Source: Phytoactinopolyspora mesophila (GTDB lineage Bacteria > Actinomycetota > Actinomycetes > Jiangellales > Jiangellaceae). Taken from it: a DNA stretch of 64,000 bases. Position numbers and translations under genes: made by a program. Positions 31,802-43,204 of the stretch are shown here, piece by piece (the first letter of the stretch is position 1; each line of letters begins with the position of its first letter). Below the pieces are notes generated by a model. It was not told the origin of the DNA. It made no database searches and saw only the letters and a program-made list of their open reading frames with translations. The stretch is from positions 62,001 through 126,000 of the forward strand of contig NZ_WLZY01000015.1 of assembly GCF_010122465.1 (NCBI RefSeq). Direction: 5' to 3'.

Positions 31802-32230
31802 TCAGGTGCCGGCATCAAGGCGCTGTTGCACCTCGTCCGGGGTCAGGTTCTCGGTTCGCCGGGAGACGATCCACTGGAAGCCGAACGGGTCTTGGACCCG
31901 GCCCTGCCGCATTCCGTACGGCATGTCCCCGACCGGGAAGACGACACTCGCACCTGCCTCCTGCATCGCCGTCGCGACCGCGTCGGGATCGTCGACGTTC
32001 AGCGTCAGGATGATCGGTGACCCGCCAATGGTGATAGCCGCCTTGTCGACACCGTCCTCGTCCTTGACGCTGATCGACGCATTGCCGATCCGCAGCTCGG
32101 AGAAGACGACTGAGCCGCCTGGCGCGGCATATCGGACGGTCAGCTCCGCGCCGAGGGTCTTCTGGTAGAACTCGATCGCGTGGTCAGCGCCGGCGACGAC
32201 CAGCTTGGGTACAACGGTCGATTCACTCAT
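31802..32230 (-). CDS. VOC-family protein, PhnB/glyoxalase-like
   Basis: This 142-residue protein has a paired beta-alpha-beta-beta-beta fold: KLVVAGADHAIEFYQKTLGAEL is the first module and NVDDPDAVATAMQEAGASVVFPV the second, with RVQDPFGFQWIVS near the end as in PhnB-like proteins. The start at 32230 is favoured over an extension that would run into the repeat at 32302. The function is unknown; many relatives are annotated as glyoxalase or bleomycin-resistance proteins without proof. Confidence 0.8.
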   Translation of the reverse strand: MSESTVVPKLVVAGADHAIEFYQKTLGAELTVRYAAPGGSVVFSELRIGNASISVKDEDGVDKAAITIGGSPIILTLNVDDPDAVATAMQEAGASVVFPVGDMPYGMRQGRVQDPFGFQWIVSRRTENLTPDEVQQRLDAGT

Positions 32231-32301
32231 GGGTCCAGGATGCGTCGTCGGAACGTCGTCGTGATTGGAATTTCTTGCATCCCACCGCGCTGACGACCGC
32301 G

Positions 32302-32369
32302 ACTTCAATACCGCGAGGTTTCATTCAGCGCCGGAGACGGCTTTGAACACGACCTCGCGGTATTGAAGT
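32302..32369. repeat. Intergenic inverted repeat, CTTC(A/G)ATACCGC family
   Basis: Arms of 18 bases (ACTTCAATACCGCGAGGT at 32302-32319, complement at 32352-32369) match perfectly around a 32-base loop. A related element with ACTTCGATACCGCC arms occurs 31 kb away at 63001-63068. It lies between two leftward genes, after the AraC gene's stop. Confidence 0.8.
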
Positions 32370-32411
32370 GCGGAACGACGACGCCCTTCGCGGCGGTCCG
32401 CCGGCCGACAC

Positions 32412-33305
32412 CTACGGGCCGAGCGGGATGTGGTTCTGCTCGCCCGGAGCCCGCGGACGGTACTGACCTGGCGTCACGCCGGTCAGGGCACGGAACTCGT
32501 TGATCATGTGTGCTTGATCGAAGTAGCCGTGATCAGCAGCGACGGCGGCCCAGTCTTGCTCGGTCTCGCCGCGTAACCCGCCGAGGACCCGTTGCAGTCG
32601 CCTGATCCGGGCGAACGGCTTCGGGTTGAGCCCGACAGCCGCCCGGAACCGGCGGGTGAACGTCGACGGTGTCATACCCAGCCGGTCCACGACGGCGCCG
32701 ATGGTCGCGCCCTGCCCCAACGCGCCGATCGCGTAACCCATGCCGTCGCGGGGCGCCGGTGTGCTCCGGCGGCTCGGGGGTGGAAACCGATCGAGCCTCG
32801 GCATCAGCTCCGGCCGGATCACCCGGGCCAGCAGCAGCCTCTCCAGAGTCCGCAGCATGGCCTCGGGGGTGGGCTGTTCCAACAGGCGTTCGCGTAGCGA
32901 GGCACCGTCGCGGCCCCAAAGGGTGTCGAGGCCGATCACCGGCTCCACCAGGGCGTCGGCCGGCGGGTGGAAGAACGGCGCCACACCACCGGGACGGAAT
33001 GCCACACCGACGCTGGCTCGCTGGTCCGCGGTGTCGATGCCGACCGGATGCGCGATGGCGCCGCAGAGCCCGCTGCCGCGAGTCGAGTGCATGGTGGCGA
33101 GACCGTCGCCGTCGTACCAGCGCAAGACGTCGGCGCCGAGGTTGACGACGATCTGCATGGACCCGTTGGGCACGGCCCGCTCCCGGCCAGGCGGCAGCGG
33201 CTCATCGACGTACCAGAGGACGTCGACGAACGGCGCTAGAGCCGGCGCCGGCTCACGCATCAGGGTCACCATGGCAGTTCCGAGCCTACGCCCGATTGGT
33301 GACAT
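32412..33305 (-). CDS. AraC-family transcriptional regulator
   Basis: This regulator of about 297 residues has an N-terminal ligand-sensing region (PFVDVLWYVDEPLPPGRERAVPNGSMQIVVNLG) and a C-terminal AraC double helix-turn-helix with DRLGMTPSTFTRRFRAAVGLNPKPFARIRRLQRVL and DQAHMINEFRALTGVTPGQYR. Several starts are possible (33314, 33305, 33272); none has a strong ribosome site. It is leftward and its targets are not evident. Confidence 0.85.
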   Translation of the reverse strand: MSPIGRRLGTAMVTLMREPAPALAPFVDVLWYVDEPLPPGRERAVPNGSMQIVVNLGADVLRWYDGDGLATMHSTRGSGLCGAIAHPVGIDTADQRASVGVAFRPGGVAPFFHPPADALVEPVIGLDTLWGRDGASLRERLLEQPTPEAMLRTLERLLLARVIRPELMPRLDRFPPPSRRSTPAPRDGMGYAIGALGQGATIGAVVDRLGMTPSTFTRRFRAAVGLNPKPFARIRRLQRVLGGLRGETEQDWAAVAADHGYFDQAHMINEFRALTGVTPGQYRPRAPGEQNHIPLGP

Positions 33306-33428
33306 GCCCCGCACGCCGTGGCTGGTCTCGTCGTCCCACGCATCAGCGATGCCGATCCGGCGTTGATGTGGCGCGGACGTAGCGCTGGTGGCGGATGTGG
33401 CGCCCCTCTTGTGGGGGGCTCCGCCCTC

Positions 33429-33517
33429 GGTGATCGTCAGTACGCTGTGGTCGTGCTCAGGTGATCGACAGTGCGCTGTGGCCGCGACTCAACGACCACA
33501 GCGTACTGACGATCACC
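33429..33517. repeat. Compound inverted repeat (L-L-R), TGATCGTCAGTACG family
   Basis: The left arm at 33429-33454 and right arm at 33492-33517 are perfect 26-base complements. A degenerate second left arm lies between them at 33460-33481. It sits after the stop of the leftward ilvC gene, fits a terminator, and its arm sequence matches the copies at 24451-24539 and 18-40. Confidence 0.88.
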
Positions 33518-33540
33518 GATACGGGAGCGTGCGTCGACGG

Positions 33541-34696
<1,156 letters not shown>

Positions 34697-34734
34697 ACCT
34701 CCGAGGGCTCAGATCGGATCACGATCACGATTTG

Positions 34735-35268
34735 TTAGGCGGTGCGTTCGAGGCGATCGAGCGGGCGCAGCGTGCGATCGGTGATGGACCGTGCACCGCG
34801 CCCAACAGCCACCACGCCGGATTGTACGAGCTCACGGATCCCGTACGGTTCGAGGACCCGGAGGAACGCGTCGAGTTTGTCGGGCGACCCGGTTGCCTCG
34901 ATGGTCACGGCGTCGGTGGCGACGTCCACCACCTTCGCCCGGAACAGCTCCACGGTCTGCAGGATGTGCGGCCGGGTTTCGTTGTCGGTGCGAACCTTCA
35001 GCAACAGCAGTTCCCGCTGGACCGAGGCCGTGGAGTCCAGCTCCACGATCTTGATGACGTTCACCAGCTTGTTCAGCTGTTTCGTCACCTGTTCCAGCGG
35101 CGAGTCCTCGACATCGACGACGACGGTCATCCGCGACACCGCTGGATACTCGGTGGGGCCCACCGCCAGCGAGTCGATGTTGAATCCTCGCCGCGAGAAC
35201 AACGACGCGATCCGCGCCAGCACGCCGGGCTTGTTCTCGACCAGCACCGACAGCGTATGTTTGCTCAC
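34735..35268 (-). CDS. ilvN: Acetolactate synthase small (regulatory) subunit
   Basis: This 177-residue subunit has an N-terminal ACT domain ([36 protein letters not shown]), the site of valine feedback inhibition, and a C-terminal ALS_ss_C domain. The GTG start overlaps the ilvB stop by GTGA, so the catalytic and regulatory subunits are made in coupled amounts. Confidence 0.96.
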
Positions 35269-37091
35269 TCTTCTTCACTCCTGTCCCAAACGGGCGCCAT
35301 CCCCCGCGCGATCTGGATCTCGTCGTTGCTGGTACCGGCCGCCACCATCGGCCACACCATGGCGTCGCGGTGGACACCGAAGTCGACCACCACCGGACGG
35401 TCGTCGACCGCCATGGCCTTCTCGATCGTGGCGTCCACGTCTTCGGCGGTGTCACACCGCAGGCCCACGCAGCCGTAGGCCTCGGCGAGCTTGGCGAAGT
35501 CGGGGATGCGCTGGCTGTGCAGGTCGGTGTTGGAGTAGCGGGCGTTGTAGAACAGCGTCTGCCACTGCCGGACCATGCCCAGGCTGGCGTTGTTGATCAC
35601 GGCGACCTTGATCGGGATTCCTTCGATCGCGCACGTGGCCAGCTCCTGGTTGGTCATCTGGAAGCAGCCGTCGCCGTCGATGGCCCACACCGTGGAGTCC
35701 GGTTTGCCGACCTGGGCGCCCATCGCGGCCGGCACCGCGAAGCCCATGGTGCCGAGTCCGCCGGAGTTGAGCCACGTGCCTGGGTTCTCGTATGAGATGA
35801 ACTGCGATGCCCACATCTGGTGCTGTCCGACACCGGCGACGTACAGGGCGTCCGGCCCGGCGATCTGGCCCAGCCGCTGGATGACGTGCTGCGGTGAGAG
35901 CGAGCCGTCGTCCGGCGCGGTGAACCCGAGCGGGTACCGCTCGAGCCACTGGCCGAGCTGACTCCACCAGCCGGCGTAGTCGCCCTGCCGGCCCGCCGCG
36001 TGCTCGGCGCGCACCGCGGCGATGAGATCGGTGATGACCTCCTTGCAGTCGCCCACGATAGGCACGTCGGCGACCCGGTTCTTGGAGATCTCGGCGGGGT
36101 CGATGTCAGCGTGCACGACGGTGGCTCCGGGCGCGAAGGACGACAACTTGCCCGTCACGCGATCGTCGAACCGGGCGCCCAGGGCGATGATCAGATCCGA
36201 CTTCTGCAACGAGGTGACGGCGGCGACGGTGCCATGCATGCCGGGCATACCCAGATGCTGCGGGTGACTATCGGGGAACGCACCCCGGGCCGTCAGCGTC
36301 GTGACGACGGGAAGCCCGGACAGTTCGGCCAGCTGGCGCAACTCCGCCCATGCCTTGGCCCGCAGCACACCGCCACCGACGTACAACACCGGCCGCTTCG
36401 AGGTCACGATCAGCCGGGCCGCCTCGCGAATCTGCTTGGCGTGCGGGCGTGTCGTCGGATGATATCCGGGCATGTCGAGCATCGCCGGCCACTCGAATTC
36501 GGTGGTCGCCTGCATGGCATCCTTCGCGACGTCCACCAGTACCGGGCCGGGCCGGCCGGTGGAAGCGACGTGGAACGCCTCGGCCACCGTGCGGGGAATC
36601 TCGGCCGGATCGGTCACCAGGTAGTTGTGCTTGGTGATCGGCATGGTGATACCGCGGATGTCGGCTTCCTGGAAGGCGTCGGTCCCGATGGCCGCGCTGG
36701 CCACCTGACCGGTGATCGCCACCATGGGAACGGAGTCCATGTAAGCGTCGGCGATCGGTGTCACCAGGTTGGTGGCTCCCGGGCCGGACGTCGCGATGCA
36801 CACACCCACCCGGCCCGTGGCCAGCGCATAGCCCTCGGCCGCGTGCCCGGCGCCTTGCTCGTGCCGCACGAGAATGTGCCGGATCTGCTGGGAATCGAAA
36901 ATGGGGTCGTAAGCAGGAAGGATCGCGCCACCGGGAATTCCGAATACGGTGTCGACGCCCGCTTCCTCGAGCGAGCGGATCAGGCTCGCCGCTCCTGTCA
37001 TCGTTGTCGCGTCGTCGCGGCGCTCACGCGCCCCGGCGTCACCGTTCTCCTGCACCATGTCGGCCTCTTCTGCCTCGTTGTCCCGTGCCAT
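35265..37091 (-). CDS. ilvB: Acetolactate synthase large (catalytic) subunit
   Basis: This enzyme of about 608 residues is TPP-, FAD- and magnesium-dependent and joins two pyruvates, or pyruvate and 2-ketobutyrate. Three domains are visible: the N-terminal TPP-binding domain with the catalytic glutamate in [16 protein letters not shown], the central domain with [19 protein letters not shown], and the C-terminal TPP domain with the GDGCFQ to NN motif. The first 30 residues are a nonconserved acidic extension. GGGGAG precedes the ATG at 37091. It is controlled by the leader and attenuator at 37130-37222. Confidence 0.96.
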
Positions 37092-37129
37092 CACGTGCTC
37101 CCCGCTGAGTTCGAAACTCCCCTAGCAAC

Positions 37130-37162
37130 AAAAAACCCCTCGGCCCGGAGGCTCACGAGGGG
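37130..37162 (-). terminator. ilvB attenuator terminator
   Basis: On the minus strand CCCCTCG pairs with CGAGGGG around a loop that can itself pair (GCC/GGC), and six U residues follow directly. It ends 38 bases before the ilvB start, so it is positioned to stop transcription inside the leader. A U-tract is unusual for this window's hairpins and supports a true attenuator. Confidence 0.85.
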
Positions 37163-37195
37163 TAGCGCGTTGACGATACGTCGTCGAACGCGCTA
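37163..37195 (-). promoter_or_regulatory. ilvB leader hairpin abutting the terminator
   Basis: TAGCGCGTT pairs perfectly with AACGCGCTA, with an inner GACGA/TCGTC stem. Its 5' edge is the stop codon of the leader peptide and its 3' edge touches the terminator stem. A ribosome stalled on the branched-chain codons would cover the 5' arm and change the fold, as expected for a pause or antiterminator element. Confidence 0.75.
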
Positions 37196-37222
37196 GTGAA
37201 GTACGAGAATGTCGAGTCGCAC
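37193..37222 (-). CDS. ilvB leader peptide
   Basis: The frame reads MRLDILVLH then TAG from a GTG start; an ATG at 37264 would give 23 residues in the same frame. Five of the nine residues are Leu, Ile or Val, with a run of four (ILVL), the three amino acids made by this pathway. It resembles the short ilvB leaders known in Streptomyces and Corynebacterium. Neither start has a strong ribosome site. Shortage of charged Ile, Val or Leu tRNA would stall the ribosome and prevent termination. Confidence 0.75.
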   Translation of the reverse strand: MRLDILVLH

Positions 37223-37343
37223 GGAAGTACCGTGACCCACCGTGTGAGCACCCGTCAAGTGCATCGACCAGATTTCTCATCATCCGGACGCGACGTCCGC
37301 ATTCCGGTCGCGCCCGGATAGCGGAAGAGTTTGGCATGACCAC

Positions 37344-37793
37344 TCAGAACACGAACTTGTCTGCCCATCGGGGGCGCCGATCGTGCCTCCGCCGGCTTCG
37401 ACGCTCCGCCAGGAGACGTGCCACGACGGAAACCACGACGCCCAGCGCTACCGCGATGACCCTGATGCTGGAGCTTGCGACCAAGGAGTACCCCATACCA
37501 ATCAACGCGCCGACCACGACGTACGGCCACAACATGCGCACTAGCCCGACGCCGCGCACCAGCCACGGCTCAATCGCCCACGTGCTCACCAGCCATGCCG
37601 CAGCGCCGGGCACCCAATACACGGTGCCAATCACGGCGCCCACGACGAAGCCGCCTGCGTCGTTGAACCCCACCGCGCCCCAGAATCCCAGCACCACGGC
37701 GATCGCGAGCCACGTCCACAGCAATCCGACAAGAAGGTCTGTACCTCCGACCCGCCGCGCAGGCACGTTTGGCAATTCCTGGACTTCTGCCAT
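37344..37793 (-). CDS. Hypothetical membrane protein, four spans
   Basis: This 149-residue protein has predicted spans at about 20-45, 50-75, 90-110 and 115-135 and a basic C-terminus rich in Arg (RRSRRRHDRRPRWADKF). AAGGA precedes the ATG at 37793. I recognise no family. It lies just upstream of the ilvB leader in the same direction and is probably separate from it. Confidence 0.6.
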   Translation of the reverse strand: MAEVQELPNVPARRVGGTDLLVGLLWTWLAIAVVLGFWGAVGFNDAGGFVVGAVIGTVYWVPGAAAWLVSTWAIEPWLVRGVGLVRMLWPYVVVGALIGMGYSLVASSSIRVIAVALGVVVSVVARLLAERRSRRRHDRRPRWADKFVF

Positions 37794-37948
37794 CAGCATC
37801 CTTCGAACGCGCCTGTGGGTGATTCTCCCAGCGCCACAATACGAGAACGCCCTCTGTGATGCCTCCCGGTCACCGGGGGGTCGGTGGTCGCCGCCCCCGT
37901 TTGACGACGACCACCGCTCGTGGGTGAAGTAGCCCCGCTAGCCATACC

Positions 37949-38122
37949 TCAGCGGTCGAAGGCGTCCTTGATGTTCTCGCCGGCCTTCTTCACGTCGGAT
38001 TTGGCCTGGTCGGTTTTGCCCTCGGCTTCTTTCTCCTCGTCGCCGGTGGCTTTACCCCAGGCTTCCTTCGCCTTGCCGGTGAGGTCTTCGGCGGCGTTCT
38101 TGACCTTGTCGTCAGCACCCAT
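37949..38122 (-). CDS. CsbD-family stress protein
   Basis: This 57-residue hydrophilic protein has the CsbD signature DKVKNAAEDLTGKAKEAWGK at residues 5-24 and an acidic/basic repeated tail. CsbD proteins are general-stress (sigma-B type) products of unknown mechanism. GGAGGGAAGGGG precedes the ATG. It lies 84 bases after the AmaP gene in the same direction, beyond a small hairpin. Confidence 0.9.
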   Translation of the reverse strand: MGADDKVKNAAEDLTGKAKEAWGKATGDEEKEAEGKTDQAKSDVKKAGENIKDAFDR

Positions 38123-38183
38123 GAGTGCCCCTTCCCTCCGTGGTTGTAGCCCAGCACTCGGCACAGCCGTAGCCAGCGCGAAC

Positions 38184-38200
38184 CGTCGTCCGAGACGACG
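38184..38200. terminator. Short hairpin after the Asp23/AmaP operon
   Basis: CGTCGTC and GACGACG pair perfectly around a three-base loop, seven bases past the AmaP stop codon. It probably terminates or attenuates the operon ahead of csbD. No U-tract is seen. Confidence 0.45.
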
Positions 38201-38206
38201 ATGTCC

Positions 38207-38782
38207 TCATTGCACCCGGCTCACCTTCGACTTCTTCCCCTGCCCGGCCAGGATCACCCGGTATCGAATAGCCGAGTCGGGTCCGAGATTGGCAGCGAGC
38301 TCCGCGGCCACTCGCTCAGCCGCATCCGCGGCTTCGCCGAGATCGGCCCCGGGGTCGATGCCAACGCGCAGGTCCACCAACCGTTCCCGGTGGTCGGCGT
38401 CGATGATGCGGCCCGACCGCAACTGCAGGCCCGCCGCTCCTTCGAGCGTCGCGCGTGCCGATTCGACCACCGCTGAGCTATCCACCGTCAGCCGGCCGCC
38501 AGGGTCGGATCCGGAGAGCTCGAGCCGGTGAATGGTGCGCCGCCGGGTGTGGGCGAACAACCAGTACAGCCCGACGACGACCAGGATCACACCGGCGCCG
38601 CCCGCCGCCCATGGCCACCAGCCCGCCTCGGTCCGCTCGGCGACGACGGTCACATCCAGCTGGTCGGGCGCATCTGGTATCCAGTCCAGCTCCCACGCCA
38701 CCGCCGCCGCGCCTGCAGCCATGAGCACCACACCGACGGCGAATACCGCCGTCCGTTCGAGGACCGCACCTGGACGTCTCAT
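38207..38782 (-). CDS. AmaP-like alkaline shock membrane anchor protein
   Basis: This 191-residue protein has two N-terminal membrane spans (about 10-30 and 57-77) separated by a short external loop, then a cytosolic domain of about 115 residues with HRLELSGSDPGGRLTVDSSAVVES. That layout matches AmaP, which anchors Asp23 at the membrane in Gram-positive bacteria. It overlaps the gene before it by ATGA and is the last of the five-gene Asp23 operon. Confidence 0.75.
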   Translation of the reverse strand: MRRPGAVLERTAVFAVGVVLMAAGAAAVAWELDWIPDAPDQLDVTVVAERTEAGWWPWAAGGAGVILVVVGLYWLFAHTRRRTIHRLELSGSDPGGRLTVDSSAVVESARATLEGAAGLQLRSGRIIDADHRERLVDLRVGIDPGADLGEAADAAERVAAELAANLGPDSAIRYRVILAGQGKKSKVSRVQ

Positions 38783-39744
38783 CTGGAGATCCCCGTCCGC
38801 CGCACCGAAGTCCGGATCTCGGGCGGACCGCTGAGACGGGACAGGCGCTCACCGACGCGGTCGCGCACCTCTTGTTCCGCCGTCGCCTCTCCGTCGGTGT
38901 CGAGCCGAAGGATCACAGCCTTGGCGCGTACCTTGGCACGCGCCTTCACGACGCCGGGGTGTTGAGCGACGGTATCGATCGCCAACCCTTCGACGGCCGG
39001 ACGCGACGCGTACACACCGGTGTCCGACGTCACCGGCAGCGACCGCCGGGGCCGCCGCCAGCACGCCGCAAGTACCAGCCAGAGGCCGACGAGTGCGATC
39101 CCCGGGCCGGCCGCGAGCATCCAGCTTGCCGGCTCCATGCCGTCAAGCCGGTTCAGCGCCGCGTCGATCGCCGTGCCGCCATCAAGAACGTCCAGCCCGA
39201 CCAGCGCGTCGTAGAGGGCGACGGCACCGAGTCCGGTGACCAGCAAGGCCAGGCATACTCCGGCCGCGCGGGCCGGACCCGGTCTCGCCGGGCGCTGCGC
39301 CGGCGGCAGTAATCGCTGCGACTCCTCGAGTTCGGGGGAACCCAGCCGGGCGATGCGAACGTCGGTGACGTCGACGGTCAATCCGGTTAGTGCCGCCACC
39401 CGTTCTTTGACGTGTTCGCGAGTCCGGGCGGCCCACTCCGGCAGGGAACGACCGTCCGGCGTAGAGACGTCCAGACTGATCCGGACGTGTCTGCCAATCA
39501 CCTTGACGGTGGCGCGCGGTAAGGACTGCGCACCGAGCGTCGCGAAACCCTGCCGGGTCACGGTTCTGCCGGTGACCTCGGCGGCGGCCTCCTCAGCCAC
39601 TTTCCGCACGGCGCGGTCATCGATATGGAGCCGGCCACGGTGCGGAGAAGCCGGCACGCCCGTGTGGTCGTCCGCCGGCGGTACCTCCGGTTCGATGCCT
39701 TCCATCGCCGATGGCATGCCGGTCTCTTCCCCCTCCCGGGTCAT
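38779..39744 (-). CDS. Asp23/DUF6286-like envelope stress protein with membrane spans
   Basis: This 321-residue protein begins with an Asp23-like segment (RLHIDDRAVRKVAEEAAAEVTGRTV to about residue 125), has two spans at about 155-180 and 200-225, and ends with a DUF6286-type domain (AVEGLAIDTVAQHPGVVKARAKVRAKAVILRL). It probably links the Asp23 layer to the membrane. Start at 39744; an alternative is a methionine nine residues later. It overlaps the AmaP gene and lies two bases after the small membrane gene. Confidence 0.78.
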   Translation of the reverse strand: MTREGEETGMPSAMEGIEPEVPPADDHTGVPASPHRGRLHIDDRAVRKVAEEAAAEVTGRTVTRQGFATLGAQSLPRATVKVIGRHVRISLDVSTPDGRSLPEWAARTREHVKERVAALTGLTVDVTDVRIARLGSPELEESQRLLPPAQRPARPGPARAAGVCLALLVTGLGAVALYDALVGLDVLDGGTAIDAALNRLDGMEPASWMLAAGPGIALVGLWLVLAACWRRPRRSLPVTSDTGVYASRPAVEGLAIDTVAQHPGVVKARAKVRAKAVILRLDTDGEATAEQEVRDRVGERLSRLSGPPEIRTSVRRTGISR

Positions 39745-39746
39745 GG

Positions 39747-39926
39747 TCAGTCCCGCTCCCGGCCCCGTACGGCCGCGCGCAGATCAAGCTCACCCGCCAG
39801 CTGCCCGGCGACGAGCCACCCCAAGGCACCGAGCCCCAGTGCGACCAGAAAACCGCCGAACCCGCCTGCAGCGGCAGCGACTCCCAGCAGCAGTCCAGCG
39901 AACATGCCGGTGGTCATGGCATTCAC
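39747..39926 (-). CDS. Small membrane protein of the Asp23 operon, DUF2273-like
   Basis: This 59-residue protein starts at GTG with GAGGAG upstream and overlaps the preceding Asp23 gene by GTGA. It has two short hydrophobic helices (MFAGLLLGVAAAAGGFGGFL and LGLGALGWLVAGQLAG) with many glycines and a charged tail. Position, coupling and size match the small DUF2273-type partner common in Asp23 operons; the sequence match itself is weak. Confidence 0.75.
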   Translation of the reverse strand: MNAMTTGMFAGLLLGVAAAAGGFGGFLVALGLGALGWLVAGQLAGELDLRAAVRGRERD

Positions 39927-40276
39927 GATGTCTCCTCCTCGCCTTTCTCCTCCGGCGGTGTCCGGCCTTGCTCGCTGCCGGACTGCATAGCCACGTCCGC
40001 GATCATCACGTCGACCTGGCCGGGCCGAACCTCTGCCGCGGCCCGCCGGATCGCGTCGGCGGTTCCCCTGACCGGTGATCCCCAGCGCACAACCACATGC
40101 ACCTCCGTGCTGTTCTCGTGCACTCTGATTCCAGGCACTCGGCGGCCGGGTAGATAACTGCCCACCTCGCCGAACATGCCTTGATGCAGGGCTTCGACGC
40201 CGTCGACGGCCAGTACCGCCTCCGCAAGGGCGTCGACGACCTCAGGCTCCGCGCCGGGCGGGTTCGGCGAACTCAT
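39923..40276 (-). CDS. Asp23/Gls24-family-like envelope stress protein
   Basis: This 117-residue protein lies between the main Asp23 gene and the small membrane gene, overlapping both by four bases. It has the Gls24-like pattern VVDALAEAVLAVDGVEALHQGMFGEVGSYLPGRRVPGIRV and TEVHVVVRWGSPV, ending in a Glu-rich tail. It is probably a divergent Asp23 paralog that binds the same membrane assembly. Confidence 0.8.
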   Translation of the reverse strand: MSSPNPPGAEPEVVDALAEAVLAVDGVEALHQGMFGEVGSYLPGRRVPGIRVHENSTEVHVVVRWGSPVRGTADAIRRAAAEVRPGQVDVMIADVAMQSGSEQGRTPPEEKGEEETS

Positions 40277-40764
40277 TCGACCCGGTGGGCCTGCGGCTCG
40301 TGGTCCTCGTCCTCGCCTTCGAGGTGGACGTCGTTGACCACAATGTTCACCTCTGTCACCTCCAGCCCGGTCATCCGCTCGATGGCCGTGATGACGTTGC
40401 GCCGGATCCCTGCGGCAAGGTCGACGACGGACACCCCGTACTCGGCGACGATGTCAAGGTCGATAGCGGTCTGCCGCTCTCCGACCTCAACAGAGACTCC
40501 CTGCTGAAAGTTGGTGGTCGAACCGGGGATCCGATCACGCAGGGCACCGACCATTCGGGCCGTACCACCCCCGAGATCGTAAACGCCGGCTACCTCTCGG
40601 GTGGCGATGCCGGCGATCTTGGAGACAACCCCGTCCGCAATGGTGGTCCGGCCCTGCGCCGTCAGCAGCGGACCACCGGCATCGGTCGCAACCTCTTTCG
40701 ACTGCTGGGGATCGCTTTGCGACGCTCCCTCTGACTGGGTATTTCTGGCCGTCTTCTCCACCAT
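40273..40764 (-). CDS. Asp23/Gls24-family envelope stress response protein
   Basis: This 163-residue protein has a polar first 40 residues and then a clear Asp23 domain: TTIADGVVSKIAGIATREVAGVYDLGGG, QTAIDLDIVAEYGVSVVDLA and ERMTGLEVTEVNIVVNDVHL. Members are abundant cytosolic proteins at the membrane that guard against envelope stress. It is the first gene of a five-gene operon, and a sigma-B-like promoter lies about 110 bases upstream. Confidence 0.92.
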   Translation of the reverse strand: MVEKTARNTQSEGASQSDPQQSKEVATDAGGPLLTAQGRTTIADGVVSKIAGIATREVAGVYDLGGGTARMVGALRDRIPGSTTNFQQGVSVEVGERQTAIDLDIVAEYGVSVVDLAAGIRRNVITAIERMTGLEVTEVNIVVNDVHLEGEDEDHEPQAHRVE

Positions 40765-41103
40765 GAGTCCATTCCCTCCGTCAATGTTCGCCGAGCCGTA
40801 TAACGCGGCCCACAGTCGGGAGACACCGCCGCCGCCACGAGTGTCACGCCGCTTGGCGAGTGACTTGAATCACGTTACCCATATACCAGTCGGTCACACG
40901 GCCGTTCGGCAAAGAAAGTGCCACTGGCCGCGTGGGCGACTGGTCGCGCGATACCGGCCAGGCGGATGACCTGGTCTCGCCCGTGGGCATGGGCTCGGGG
41001 ACCGCCAGCGTTCGCCCTCATCGTGCAGCGGCATGGCCCGGGAATGCACCGGCTTCGCGCGCCGCCATCCCCGCCTGCAGGACGAGGACACCGACGTGCA
41101 CAT
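40765..41103. other. Gap upstream of the Asp23 operon
   Basis: No gene is supported here. It holds the candidate stress promoter at 40874-40899, leftward. The remainder is GC-rich with no clear repeat. Confidence 0.4.
40874..40899 (-). promoter_or_regulatory. Candidate sigma-B-type promoter of the Asp23 operon
   Basis: On the minus strand GTGT, a 15-base spacer and GGGTAAC resemble the actinobacterial stress sigma consensus GTTT-N14-17-GGGTAT. The match is partial. The location before a stress operon makes it plausible. Confidence 0.4.
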
Positions 41104-41322
41104 CTACGGCGTTACCCCGCCGCCTGATTCCCCATGATCGGTTTCACGACGCAGCCGCGCCGCCTCCGAGCGAACGATCTGTTCGGCCTCTTCGACGATA
41201 GCCGGCGGGCGGGGCCGCGGATCCGCGTGCTGGCGATCGACATGCATACCGGCCAACAGCACCGTGACCAGCATCGCGGTCAGTATGGCAGCCATACTCA
41301 GGGCGATCATCCAAGGCTCCAT
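41104..41322 (-). CDS. Small membrane protein, one span
   Basis: This 72-residue protein has one N-terminal span (MIALSMAAILTAMLVTVLLAGM) and a charged cytosolic tail (EEAEQIVRSEAARLRRETDHG). GGAGGCGG precedes the ATG. No family is recognised. Confidence 0.5.
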   Translation of the reverse strand: MEPWMIALSMAAILTAMLVTVLLAGMHVDRQHADPRPRPPAIVEEAEQIVRSEAARLRRETDHGESGGGVTP

Positions 41323-41434
41323 GTACTACCGCCTCCACGCGCTGGTTCGCGAAGCCGACATGTTTAGAGCTACCCGCCGCGAGCCTCCTCTATGCCTATC
41401 GCCCGGAGATCGGGTGCCACACAACGCCGCAGCG

Positions 41435-43204
41435 CTAGTACATATCGGCGAATCGCTCATCGATGACCTCGCGAAGCATGCCGGCGTCGTGGTCGCTCCA
41501 GTCGTCCGGAGGCGCAACCGCGCTCCAACCGTCGACGTACTCCAGCAGATAATTGTGACCGTACCCGGCGGGGACGTCACCGGCGAGGAACAGATCCATA
41601 GTGACGTGCCAGAACGTCACCACGGGAAGCCATTGCAGACCCGGGAGCACGTCCACGCCGGCGGGTTCGCGCATCCAGTCCGGCTCGTGCAGCAGGAGAT
41701 CGGACGACCACCACACGACCGCGTCCGAAGCATGTTGGATATACGCGACCCGCGGGAACTCCCACCGCGGCCCCAGCTCCCAGAGATCGGCGGCGCCGGT
41801 TCCGCTCGCCCATCGGACCTGACGGCCGTCTTCGTAGACGGGATGGCGCTCATATGATCCCGCATCGCGGTTCTCCGTGAGGTCTCGCAAGATCTCCGTA
41901 CCCCAAGGGGTCGCCACCCACAACGCGCCGTCGGTGCGGACAACCATGTCCTGCAAACCACTGAACGCACCATGGCCACTGAAGCTGCCCAGCGACTCGC
42001 CGTACATCAGGAGCAACGGGCGCTCCGCCTCGGGCCGCTCGGACCAGGCCGCGTACACCGCTTCGAACAACGCCTGACCGGCCTCGGGCGCGCCGTGGCG
42101 GTCTGCGAGGAAGGCGATCCAGCTGGGCAGCTCCGAATATTGCAGCGCCGCCACCGCCGTATTGCCGCCGTGCATCAACTCGATGGTCTCGACGGCGGCG
42201 GGATCAACCAGGCCGCTGCTGGCCGGCGCGGCGACAACAAGCACCGCGCGGTCCCACGCGCCTGTGCGATCGAGCTCTGCGACTGCCAGCTCCGCACCCA
42301 CGGTGGGGCTATCCGCCGCCCCCAGGGGCGCGTAGACCCTGATCGGCACCTCGACATCCGCCTCGGGCGGAGTCGCCCGGCGACTCGCGAAGTCAGCGAG
42401 CTGCGCCGTCGACGGGCCTCCGGACACGAACTGCCGGCCGAATCGCCCGAGCGAGTCCCACGAGACCAGCGATTCCGGTGAACCCGACCGCTCGGCCAGA
42501 ACCGGCTGGACAAGATCTGGATCTCCCCTGCGATCCGCCGCGATGGCGATCTTCTCCATGCCGGTGATCAGCCAGCTCATGGCCGTGCCGTTGAGCACCA
42601 GCACCGCGACAGCGGCTACCCCAACCCATGTCACCAGTCGAAACACCGTGAGCGGCACCCACCGTTTCAGCACTGTCAGACACCGTTGGGCGAATACTCT
42701 GACCGCTCGGGCGAGCAGCACCAGGATCAACGCGGTTACCAGTGCTAGCGGCAGCGCCGCGATGAAGGAAGGACCGATCTCCGCCATGCCGAGGAGTCGG
42801 CGTGCTTCGGCCTGCCAGCTGAAACTCCAGAACATGAAGCCGGTGATCGCCAGAGCGGCCGCTCCGGCCAGTATGAACCACCCCATGCGCCGTGTCCGGT
42901 CCGCCCAATCAGGATGGATGCCCGCACGACGGCCGAACCAGGCCAGCAGTAGGCCGAACCCATAACCGAGCGCGGCCGTGAGCCCGGAGAAGACGGCTTG
43001 GTGCACCAACGGCCGCGGGATCAAAGCCGGCAGGAAGGTGAGGCACAAAAAGCACAGCGCGCCGACCAGGCCGATCGCCCGGAACGACGATGCCAACCGC
43101 CACACGGGACGAGTCAGCTGCCGCAAGACCGCGTGGACCGGCGCCTCCTGGCGGGATGGGCCGTCCGGCTGGTTGGACCTCACCGCGACGACCCGTGCGC
43201 CCAT
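41435..43204 (-). CDS. Membrane alpha/beta-hydrolase (Abhydrolase_9 type)
   Basis: This 589-residue protein has about five N-terminal spans in residues 30-225 (AIGLVGALCFLCLTFLPALI; YGFGLLLAWFGRRAGIHPDW) and a C-terminal alpha/beta-hydrolase domain with the nucleophile elbow GESLGS in LLMYGESLGSFSGHGAFSG. The combination matches the alpha/beta-hydrolase family with an Abhydrolase_9_N membrane part found in actinobacteria. GGAGGGAG precedes the ATG. The substrate is unknown; a lipid or ester near the membrane is inferred. It lies 44 bases after the PfpI gene. Confidence 0.8.
   Translation of the reverse strand: MGARVVAVRSNQPDGPSRQEAPVHAVLRQLTRPVWRLASSFRAIGLVGALCFLCLTFLPALIPRPLVHQAVFSGLTAALGYGFGLLLAWFGRRAGIHPDWADRTRRMGWFILAGAAALAITGFMFWSFSWQAEARRLLGMAEIGPSFIAALPLALVTALILVLLARAVRVFAQRCLTVLKRWVPLTVFRLVTWVGVAAVAVLVLNGTAMSWLITGMEKIAIAADRRGDPDLVQPVLAERSGSPESLVSWDSLGRFGRQFVSGGPSTAQLADFASRRATPPEADVEVPIRVYAPLGAADSPTVGAELAVAELDRTGAWDRAVLVVAAPASSGLVDPAAVETIELMHGGNTAVAALQYSELPSWIAFLADRHGAPEAGQALFEAVYAAWSERPEAERPLLLMYGESLGSFSGHGAFSGLQDMVVRTDGALWVATPWGTEILRDLTENRDAGSYERHPVYEDGRQVRWASGTGAADLWELGPRWEFPRVAYIQHASDAVVWWSSDLLLHEPDWMREPAGVDVLPGLQWLPVVTFWHVTMDLFLAGDVPAGYGHNYLLEYVDGWSAVAPPDDWSDHDAGMLREVIDERFADMY

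Follow-up and report, generated by a model that had tools for sequence, protein, structure and literature searches.

Organization of the region upstream of ilvB

The stretch of DNA analysed in this study (the window, 64 kb in length) carries on its minus strand the genes of an ilvB-ilvN-ilvC operon, and ahead of ilvB a compact element was identified which is composed of a short leader peptide gene, two hairpins (P1 and P2) and a U-tract ending about 35 nt before the ilvB reading frame (Table 1). This arrangement, a short open reading frame with Ile, Leu and Val codons located 5' of ilvB and beside a hairpin and U-tract terminator, is the one described for actinobacterial ilvB leaders in PMC1262725.

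Table 1. Features of the ilvB leader region and of the downstream operon (positions in the window)
Feature	Position	Strand	Basis
-35 element TTGACG of the inferred promoter	37253..37258	-	TTGAC at conserved spacing in Jiangellaceae elements
-10 element CACGGT (family pattern nAnnnT)	37229..37234	-	last T 7 nt 5' of the start codon
Leader peptide gene, GTG start, MRLDILVLH-TAG, 9 codons, probably leaderless	37193..37222	-	conserved start, codons and TAG
Hairpin P1, 5' arm beginning in TAG	37163..37195	-	folding; class-wide covariation
Terminator hairpin P2 (CCCCTCG..CGAGGGG)	37136..37162	-	folding; class-wide covariation
U-tract of six	37130..37135	-	only T6/A6 run in the 64 kb window, both strands
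ilvB, acetolactate synthase large subunit (regulated gene)	35265..37094	-	NF005860 / TIGR00118 above cut-off
ilvN, acetolactate synthase small subunit	34735..35268	-	NF008864 / TIGR00119 above cut-off
ilvC, ketol-acid reductoisomerase	33541..34638	-	TIGR00465 above cut-off

A leader frame ending in ILVLH-stop had been reported in the preliminary description of this DNA, and it is present on the minus strand as the frame 37264..37193, which translates as MHLTGAHTVGHGTSVRLDILVLH-stop. Counted from the GTG, the regulatory codons ATT CTC GTA CTT occupy positions 5-8. The TAG (37195..37193) contributes its U to P1, where it forms the outermost pair U(37195)-A(37163), and the 5' arm therefore begins in the stop codon as described earlier; the hairpin had been called perfect, but it contains one unpaired C and is nearly so. 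P1 abuts the GC-rich P2 with a spacer of 0 nt, and the six U residues follow as reported, their supposed rarity in the window being borne out (Table 1). A37163 can alternatively pair with the first U of the U-tract. The promoter-like TTGACG and CACGGT are 18 nt apart.

The folding of 37300..37125 (176 nt) was found to be more stable than that of 198 out of 200 dinucleotide shuffles (z -2.86). At the gathering score, Rfam 15 gave no match in the 64 kb window; below the threshold there were three matches around the element, none of them to a leader or terminator family. A sigma-70 consensus scan of 32000-42000 reported no promoter-like site, TTGACG included.

Conservation of the leader and position of its start

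IlvB is present in 21 of the 22 Jiangellaceae genomes, the exception (G008) being 81% complete, and the closest named IlvB proteins are those of Phytoactinopolyspora endophytica (88%) and then Jiangella aurantiaca (86%). The family set consisted of the upstream regions of the 20 other genomes with IlvB and of the window itself; it was gathered by IlvB and not by an RNA model. In 20 of these 21 elements the order [GA]TG-CG-...-ILV(V)-L/P-H/P-TAG, P1, P2 and U-tract is kept, which answers the earlier suggestion that the leader be compared in relatives. The lone exception, G007, has the leader MRFSTLVLGRRVG-TGA, a long form as in Streptomyces, and the tract TCTTTT. Among the 20 short elements the start codon is GTG in 19 and ATG in one (G006). 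GTA is fixed in 20/20 and CTT in 19/20, while ATT and CTC are in place in 18/20, the remaining two leaders having an inserted GTA. These are rare codons: in 48 ORFs of the window ATT accounts for 9.1%, GTA for 6.0% (n=1699 Val codons) and CTT for 6.1% of the codons of its own amino acid.

The core of P1, which is untranslated in the short elements, reads GCGCG in 19 of 20; G017 has GCGTG, which retains the pairing. Its retention though untranslated suggests that the core serves as RNA. Both stems hardly vary inside Jiangellaceae, and none of 18 pairs had a double change there. The predicted 5' hairpin of the leader (GUGCG..CGUAC) does not overlap P1; it is nearly invariant in the family, and so without covariation, and by eye it is not general.

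Chance occurrence of branched-chain amino acid (BCAA) codons before the ordinary terminator of an upstream gene was also considered. Among 1545 stop codons in the window with 15 open codons before them, three (the leader included) have four consecutive Ile, Leu or Val codons within the last six, and the other two are chance runs. Codons, frame, start, promoter and stems are nevertheless kept in 20/21 family genomes and in the class-wide model described below, which contradicts chance, and we regard the probability of this explanation as practically nil.

The preliminary description placed the start of the leader at ATG 37264, and this was not upheld: that ATG is located 3 nt 5' of the -35 box, and the conserved start is the [GA]TG at 37222. 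The distance from TTGAC to the start codon is 36 nt in 19 of 20 short family elements and 37 nt in G001, and the pattern nAnnnT stands at -12..-7 in all 20, ending 7 nt before the start. Class-wide, leaders have A at -11 in 56/73 and T at -7 in 55/73, in a set whose start codons were picked partly by their distance to a -35-like word. TTGAC was found at 34-38 nt in 53/72 against 0.17 expected, a figure biased upward by this choice; the family figures were not so picked. The conserved TTGAC, the -10 element and the [GA]TG located 7 nt after it indicate that MRLDILVLH, nine codons read from a leaderless transcript, is the likely leader, and we infer that transcription would start at or within one nt of GTG 37222. 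In C. glutamicum the transcript start was reported one nucleotide from the leader start codon (PMC11857589), and a leaderless transcript was described for IlvL of S. lividans (PMC8079986). The coordinates given earlier therefore remain correct for the downstream part, and at the 5' end the codons upstream of 37222 are probably promoter. A transcription start downstream of the leader had been named as the finding that would speak against attenuation; the probable start falls inside the 23-codon frame proposed at that time, yet upstream of the ILVL codons.

A 23-codon leader read from ATG 37264, with a promoter further upstream, as the preliminary description implied, appears very improbable. 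This frame is open in the genome of the window, and in-frame upstream ATG codons occur at 14-15 codons in G004, G021 and G005, at 6 in G003, and at 6 and 20 in G002. However, the upstream frame is unconserved: in G001 an in-frame stop lies three codons above the start, and no upstream ATG or GTG exists in 4 of 20 elements (G001, G006, G012 and G015). G006 has its ATG exactly at the GTG position, the bases conserved above the start are TTGAC and nAnnnT, i.e. those of the promoter, and in S. lividans and C. glutamicum the reported leader start coincides with, or adjoins, the 5' end of the transcript (PMC8079986, PMC11857589).

Class-wide distribution, stem covariation and position of the stop codon

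A covariance model, R1, was built from 36 elements. It matched 241 of 296 genomes of the class at E <= 0.01 and 21 of the 22 family genomes at E <= 0.1. Outside the family, 80 matches were fetched among the matches listed, one per genome, a sample which leans to strong matches; 79 of them precede an IlvB motif and one precedes a CimA motif. The leader was recognised by script in 73 of the 80. The remaining seven, each of which shows a leader on visual inspection (MHSLLLVLR-TGA in G278 and G119, for instance), did not enter the counts. GTA makes up 85 of the 151 Val codons in the class-wide leaders. The distance from the last BCAA codon to the P1 core is -1 to 8 nt in 70/71 of them (5 nt in 38), and it is likewise 5 nt in 20/21 family elements.

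Stem covariation was analysed in 90 distinct sequences (11 from the family and 80 others, with one duplicate). Pairing in P1 and P2 was found in 93.7% of cells against 88.0% in shuffles, and 9 of 13 stem pairs had changes on both sides. Double-change cells numbered 97 in comparison to 37.9 +/- 5.8 in shuffles, with 0/500 shuffles as high and 0-14 in slid controls, in an alignment which was fitted to the model and so leans towards its structure. The class-wide covariation supports P1 and P2 as real stems. The constancy of the core across the class is partly a matter of selection, since R1 itself contains GCGCG.

In 51/73 class-wide leaders the stop codon is found 10 nt downstream of where the P1 core begins, and the 5' arm encodes a tail of the type (K/R/Q)-R-(A/V)-(G/S). 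A TAG that includes the first G of the core, with the P1 arm untranslated, occurs in 4/73 class-wide leaders (G049 and G097; G067 and G272) and in 20/21 of the family. Both forms are found within family f33 (G186 long; G067 and G272 short) and within Jiangellaceae (G007 long, the others short), and short leaders also exist at the named loci L051 (Phycicoccus sp. Root101), L076 and L008. The stop codon in the 5' arm, earlier pointed out as a neat feature, is real, and its presence in at least three families makes it a variant and no one-off. A literature search did not find a stop codon at the base of a retained P1, as seen in these three or more families, described.

These data also bear on the proposal that the terminator works at a fixed level, control being exerted at initiation (e.g. 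by NdgR), so that the leader would be a relic or only a tuner of RNA stability. NdgR is reported to bind upstream of ilvB in S. coelicolor (PMC4340878), where replacement of leader codons is reported to have had no effect (PMC1262725). In the family a block is conserved 46-65 nt before the start, with a perfect CCGGATG-N6-CATCCGG in 5/20 members, and the published NdgR motif matches with two mismatches at 37275-37289 and 37295-37309, a weak signal given 28 such sites in the window against 19.0 +/- 4.9 expected. A relic is, however, unlikely to retain its fixed rare codons, its reading frame and spacing, and stems that covary, in 241/296 genomes, and the codon content follows the gene, with Ile for cimA and Leu for leuS. 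Control at initiation alone is accordingly judged improbable; initiation control in addition to attenuation may well exist.

The conserved block itself (37268-37309, minus strand) lies upstream of the -35 box, contains TGAGA and has the look of a candidate operator. A GAGAC-type word occurs in 19/20 ilvB upstream regions against 2.2 expected, and in 2/15 upstream regions of the Ile-leader set (14 of cimA and one of an ACT-like gene) against 1.9 expected.

Termination, competing structures and the proposed mechanism

The covering of the leader by a ribosome was imitated by excluding nt 1..x (x from 0 to 51) from base pairing in equilibrium folding, which ignores timing. In 20/21 family elements the terminator had a probability of at least 0.94 at every mask, and in none of these was it displaced. 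In G007 it fell to 0.00 at x = 39 and was 0.61 at 42, that is near the stop, which is the wrong way round for attenuation. For 70 class-wide elements, masks reaching 12 nt past the A-site were placed for stalls at the first and last BCAA codon and at the stop, and the mean terminator probability was 0.94-0.96 in all ribosome states; it dropped below 0.5 in any state in 2/70 (G057 and G215). An antiterminator helix which excludes the terminator, as in attenuators of the trp/his type, is therefore not predicted at equilibrium at this locus or in 68/70 class-wide elements, and the earlier statement that all parts of ribosome-mediated attenuation are present went too far in this respect.

Individual loci behave differently. 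At L270 (G215) loss of the terminator is predicted unless the ribosome reaches the stop, which may represent a classical antiterminator. L072:1141-1243 is the exception among 25 named loci: in its predicted unmasked fold the 3' arm of the terminator is paired to the leader and not to its own 5' arm. Pairing of a leader UUCUCG with the terminator CGAGGG, noticed by eye, was rejected as a general candidate, being part of the unmasked minimum-energy fold only in L072.

In the family P1 and P2 overlap by at most one nt, the A common to the outer U-A pair of P1 and the outer A-U pair of P2. When the 3' arm of P2 is absent, its first four nt pair upstream with a mean probability of 0.21-0.26 in 19/20 short elements (0.00 in G021) because of this shared A. 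With a ribosome at the stop the same value is 0.00-0.07 in 17/20 and about 0.21-0.22 in G015, G005 and G020. The ribosome at the stop thus frees the shared A in most family elements, which is the direction attenuation needs, but it concerns a single pair. Outside the family the upstream pairing of these four nt amounts to 0.67-0.99 at L027, to 0.73 in one state each at L010 and L017, and to 0.72 unmasked at L052, and at these four loci a transient antiterminator may form according to the folding model. There may also be a kinetic effect beyond equilibrium folding.

Considering the parts, their conservation and spacing and the class-wide covariation of both stems, the element is, with good probability, a ribosome-mediated transcription attenuator of the ilvBNC operon. 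The overlap by which P1 could undo P2 is missing here, and attenuation itself is therefore regarded as likely. A ribosome would initiate on the 5'-terminal start codon and read MRLDILVLH. With ample Ile, Leu and Val it would arrive at the TAG and cover the 5' arm of P1, and the abutting P2 would stop transcription. Under shortage of any one of the three, the ribosome would wait on codons five to eight, just short of P1. P1 could then form before RNA polymerase gets to the U-tract, and read-through into ilvB would become more frequent. The reading thus presumes the start site, the translation of the leader, a response to the amino acids, and a lowering of termination by P1 in spite of the coexistence of P1 and P2 at equilibrium. 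A ribosome extends about 11-12 nt past its A-site codon; from this footprint and the observed spacing, a stall on the first control codons would leave P1 free, and a stop-bound ribosome would cover its 5' arm.

This agrees with the models published for C. glutamicum and M. tuberculosis, in which a hairpin formed upon stalling prevents the terminator (PMC11857589, PMC13236596). Changes of leader Val to Ala were reported to abolish valine control in C. glutamicum (PMC11857589), as LVVI-to-AAAA did for induction in M. tuberculosis (PMC13236596). Removal of the leader start codon lowers expression in C. glutamicum. Replacement of candidate regulatory codons in S. coelicolor was reported to be without effect (PMC1262725), and a Val-to-Glu change in the leader of C. 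ulcerans left reporter expression unchanged (PMC10272879).

P1 may also act otherwise than by folding competition, as a pause hairpin which allows ribosome loading on the leaderless start or as a site for a protein, with translation counting only through its melting of P1. The untranslated core kept in the IlvB-gathered family fits such a role, as do the absence of exclusion between P1 and P2 at equilibrium and the pausing role given to the first hairpin in the C. glutamicum study (PMC11857589). Against it, a protein reader lacks a candidate, pausing is hypothetical, and the class-wide constancy of the core partly reflects the model. We consider this reading rather unlikely; it overlaps with attenuation and is not exclusive of it.

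Related elements and comparison with known systems

In 15 of the 22 family genomes R1 also had a further match, weaker than the first. In the genome of the window this match lies outside the window (G000:C15:33306-33399; L134:3008-3100, minus strand, corresponds to G000:C15:33307-33399), and the gene which follows it is that of citramalate synthase (TIGR00977). The leader of this cimA copy, MYFQMIII, has eight codons and ends in a stop codon at the foot of a GCGCGCC hairpin, and a U-tract terminator follows. The cimA gene supplies a second, isoleucine-only copy of the module. A second model, R2, was built on 15 family elements and G056b, whose frame is MNAQLIISRRVG. All 15 family elements have II codons; in 14 the following gene is cimA, and in G004a it is a small ACT-like ORF. 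R2 matches 179/296 genomes of the class, including 21/22 of the family, and CimA was found in 236/296. At least 104 of the 150 CimA matches listed, all 21 of the family included, have a co-oriented R2 match ahead of them at a distance of 19 to 230 nt. A literature search for a cimA leader with isoleucine codons pointed to none among the papers listed.

Further copies vary in leader and gene. The cimA leader of G004 (L183, G004:C38:152841-152932) has a longer tail, MSFQMIIIGARRH, while those of its relatives are short. Ile-codon leaders MFTPRIII at L182 (G000:C6:196635-196725, minus strand) and MFALVIIM at L150:3136-3224 (minus strand; G004:C37) precede an ORF of about 100 aa with a sub-threshold ACT_4 match (E 0.0014-0.0037), and this ACT-like ORF is possibly a regulatory subunit of the pathway. 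R2 also occurs before leuS, with a comparable P1-P2 pair, Leu-rich leaders (e.g. MRRNLLLT) and the core CCGCG, at L192, L194, L198 and L199 (G222, G166, G086 and G123); by the TIGR00396 cut-off the leuS genes of G222b, G166 and G123 are above, and that of G086, cut by the contig end, is below. At L200 (G075:C2:411282-411368), a further R2 match, the leader ends in ..MVIT-stop before a threonine ammonia-lyase-like gene whose best family match is below the cut-off. The R2 match G053b runs off its contig, and no downstream gene was obtained for it.

Taken together, these elements may represent an interchangeable leaderless cassette of Actinomycetes. In it P1 (GCGCG for ilvB and cimA, CCGCG for leuS) would abut a terminator, and the codons would be swapped per gene: Ile, Leu and Val for ilvB, Ile for cimA, Leu for leuS and probably Ile for the ACT-like gene. 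With no competing helix, P1, opened or left intact by the ribosome, would alter termination in a non-classical manner, and lineages like the present one would have shortened the leader to codons plus P1. We offer this picture tentatively, its odds being somewhat below even.

In the trp and his attenuators of E. coli, a leader with codons for the respective amino acid is combined with a terminator, and the ribosome is the sensor. In contrast to these, no mutually exclusive antiterminator was found here and the start is probably leaderless. The match to actinobacterial ilvB leaders which had been proposed stands: with a BCAA-codon leader and an intrinsic terminator before ilvBNC, as in Corynebacterium, Streptomyces and Mycobacterium, the element belongs to this known family. 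The ilvB-II motif of Corynebacterium, as described in PMC10272879 and PMC11857589, likewise has a BCAA leader next to the transcript end, a hairpin at the leader end and an adjoining U-tract terminator. There a GCC trinucleotide is common to antiterminator and terminator, and the antiterminator is blocked by another hairpin, whereas in the present element the overlap of P1 and P2 amounts to one A at most. M. tuberculosis ilvB1 also has a short BCAA leader and a terminator before ilvB1NC, but its leader codons are LVVI and an antiterminator is proposed there, in the account of PMC13236596, whereas none was found here. The leuS attenuators of Streptomyces resemble the present element in their leaderless leader and terminator (PMC1262725, PMC8079986) and differ in the gene, in having Leu codons only and in the P1 core CCGCG.

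The Streptomyces IlvL, MRTRILVLGKRVG, also stands before ilvB-ilvN-ilvC and has I-L-V-L at codons 5-8, and that leader is leaderless (probably so here) with a GCGCG-core P1 abutting a U-tract terminator (PMC8079986, PMC1262725). Unlike in Streptomyces, the tail GKRVG is absent here: TAG takes the place of AAG, leaving the 5' arm of P1 untranslated, and CAC/CAT takes the place of GGA. The Streptomyces ilvB leader has been called paradoxical, as codon changes are inert there; in C. glutamicum and M. tuberculosis they are effective. The present analysis makes this paradox concrete, since by equilibrium folding 68/70 sampled elements keep the terminator whatever the ribosome covers, yet carry a covarying hairpin flush against P2. 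The short leaders of the family, in which P1 is untranslated, are natural test constructs that separate the coding role from the RNA role.
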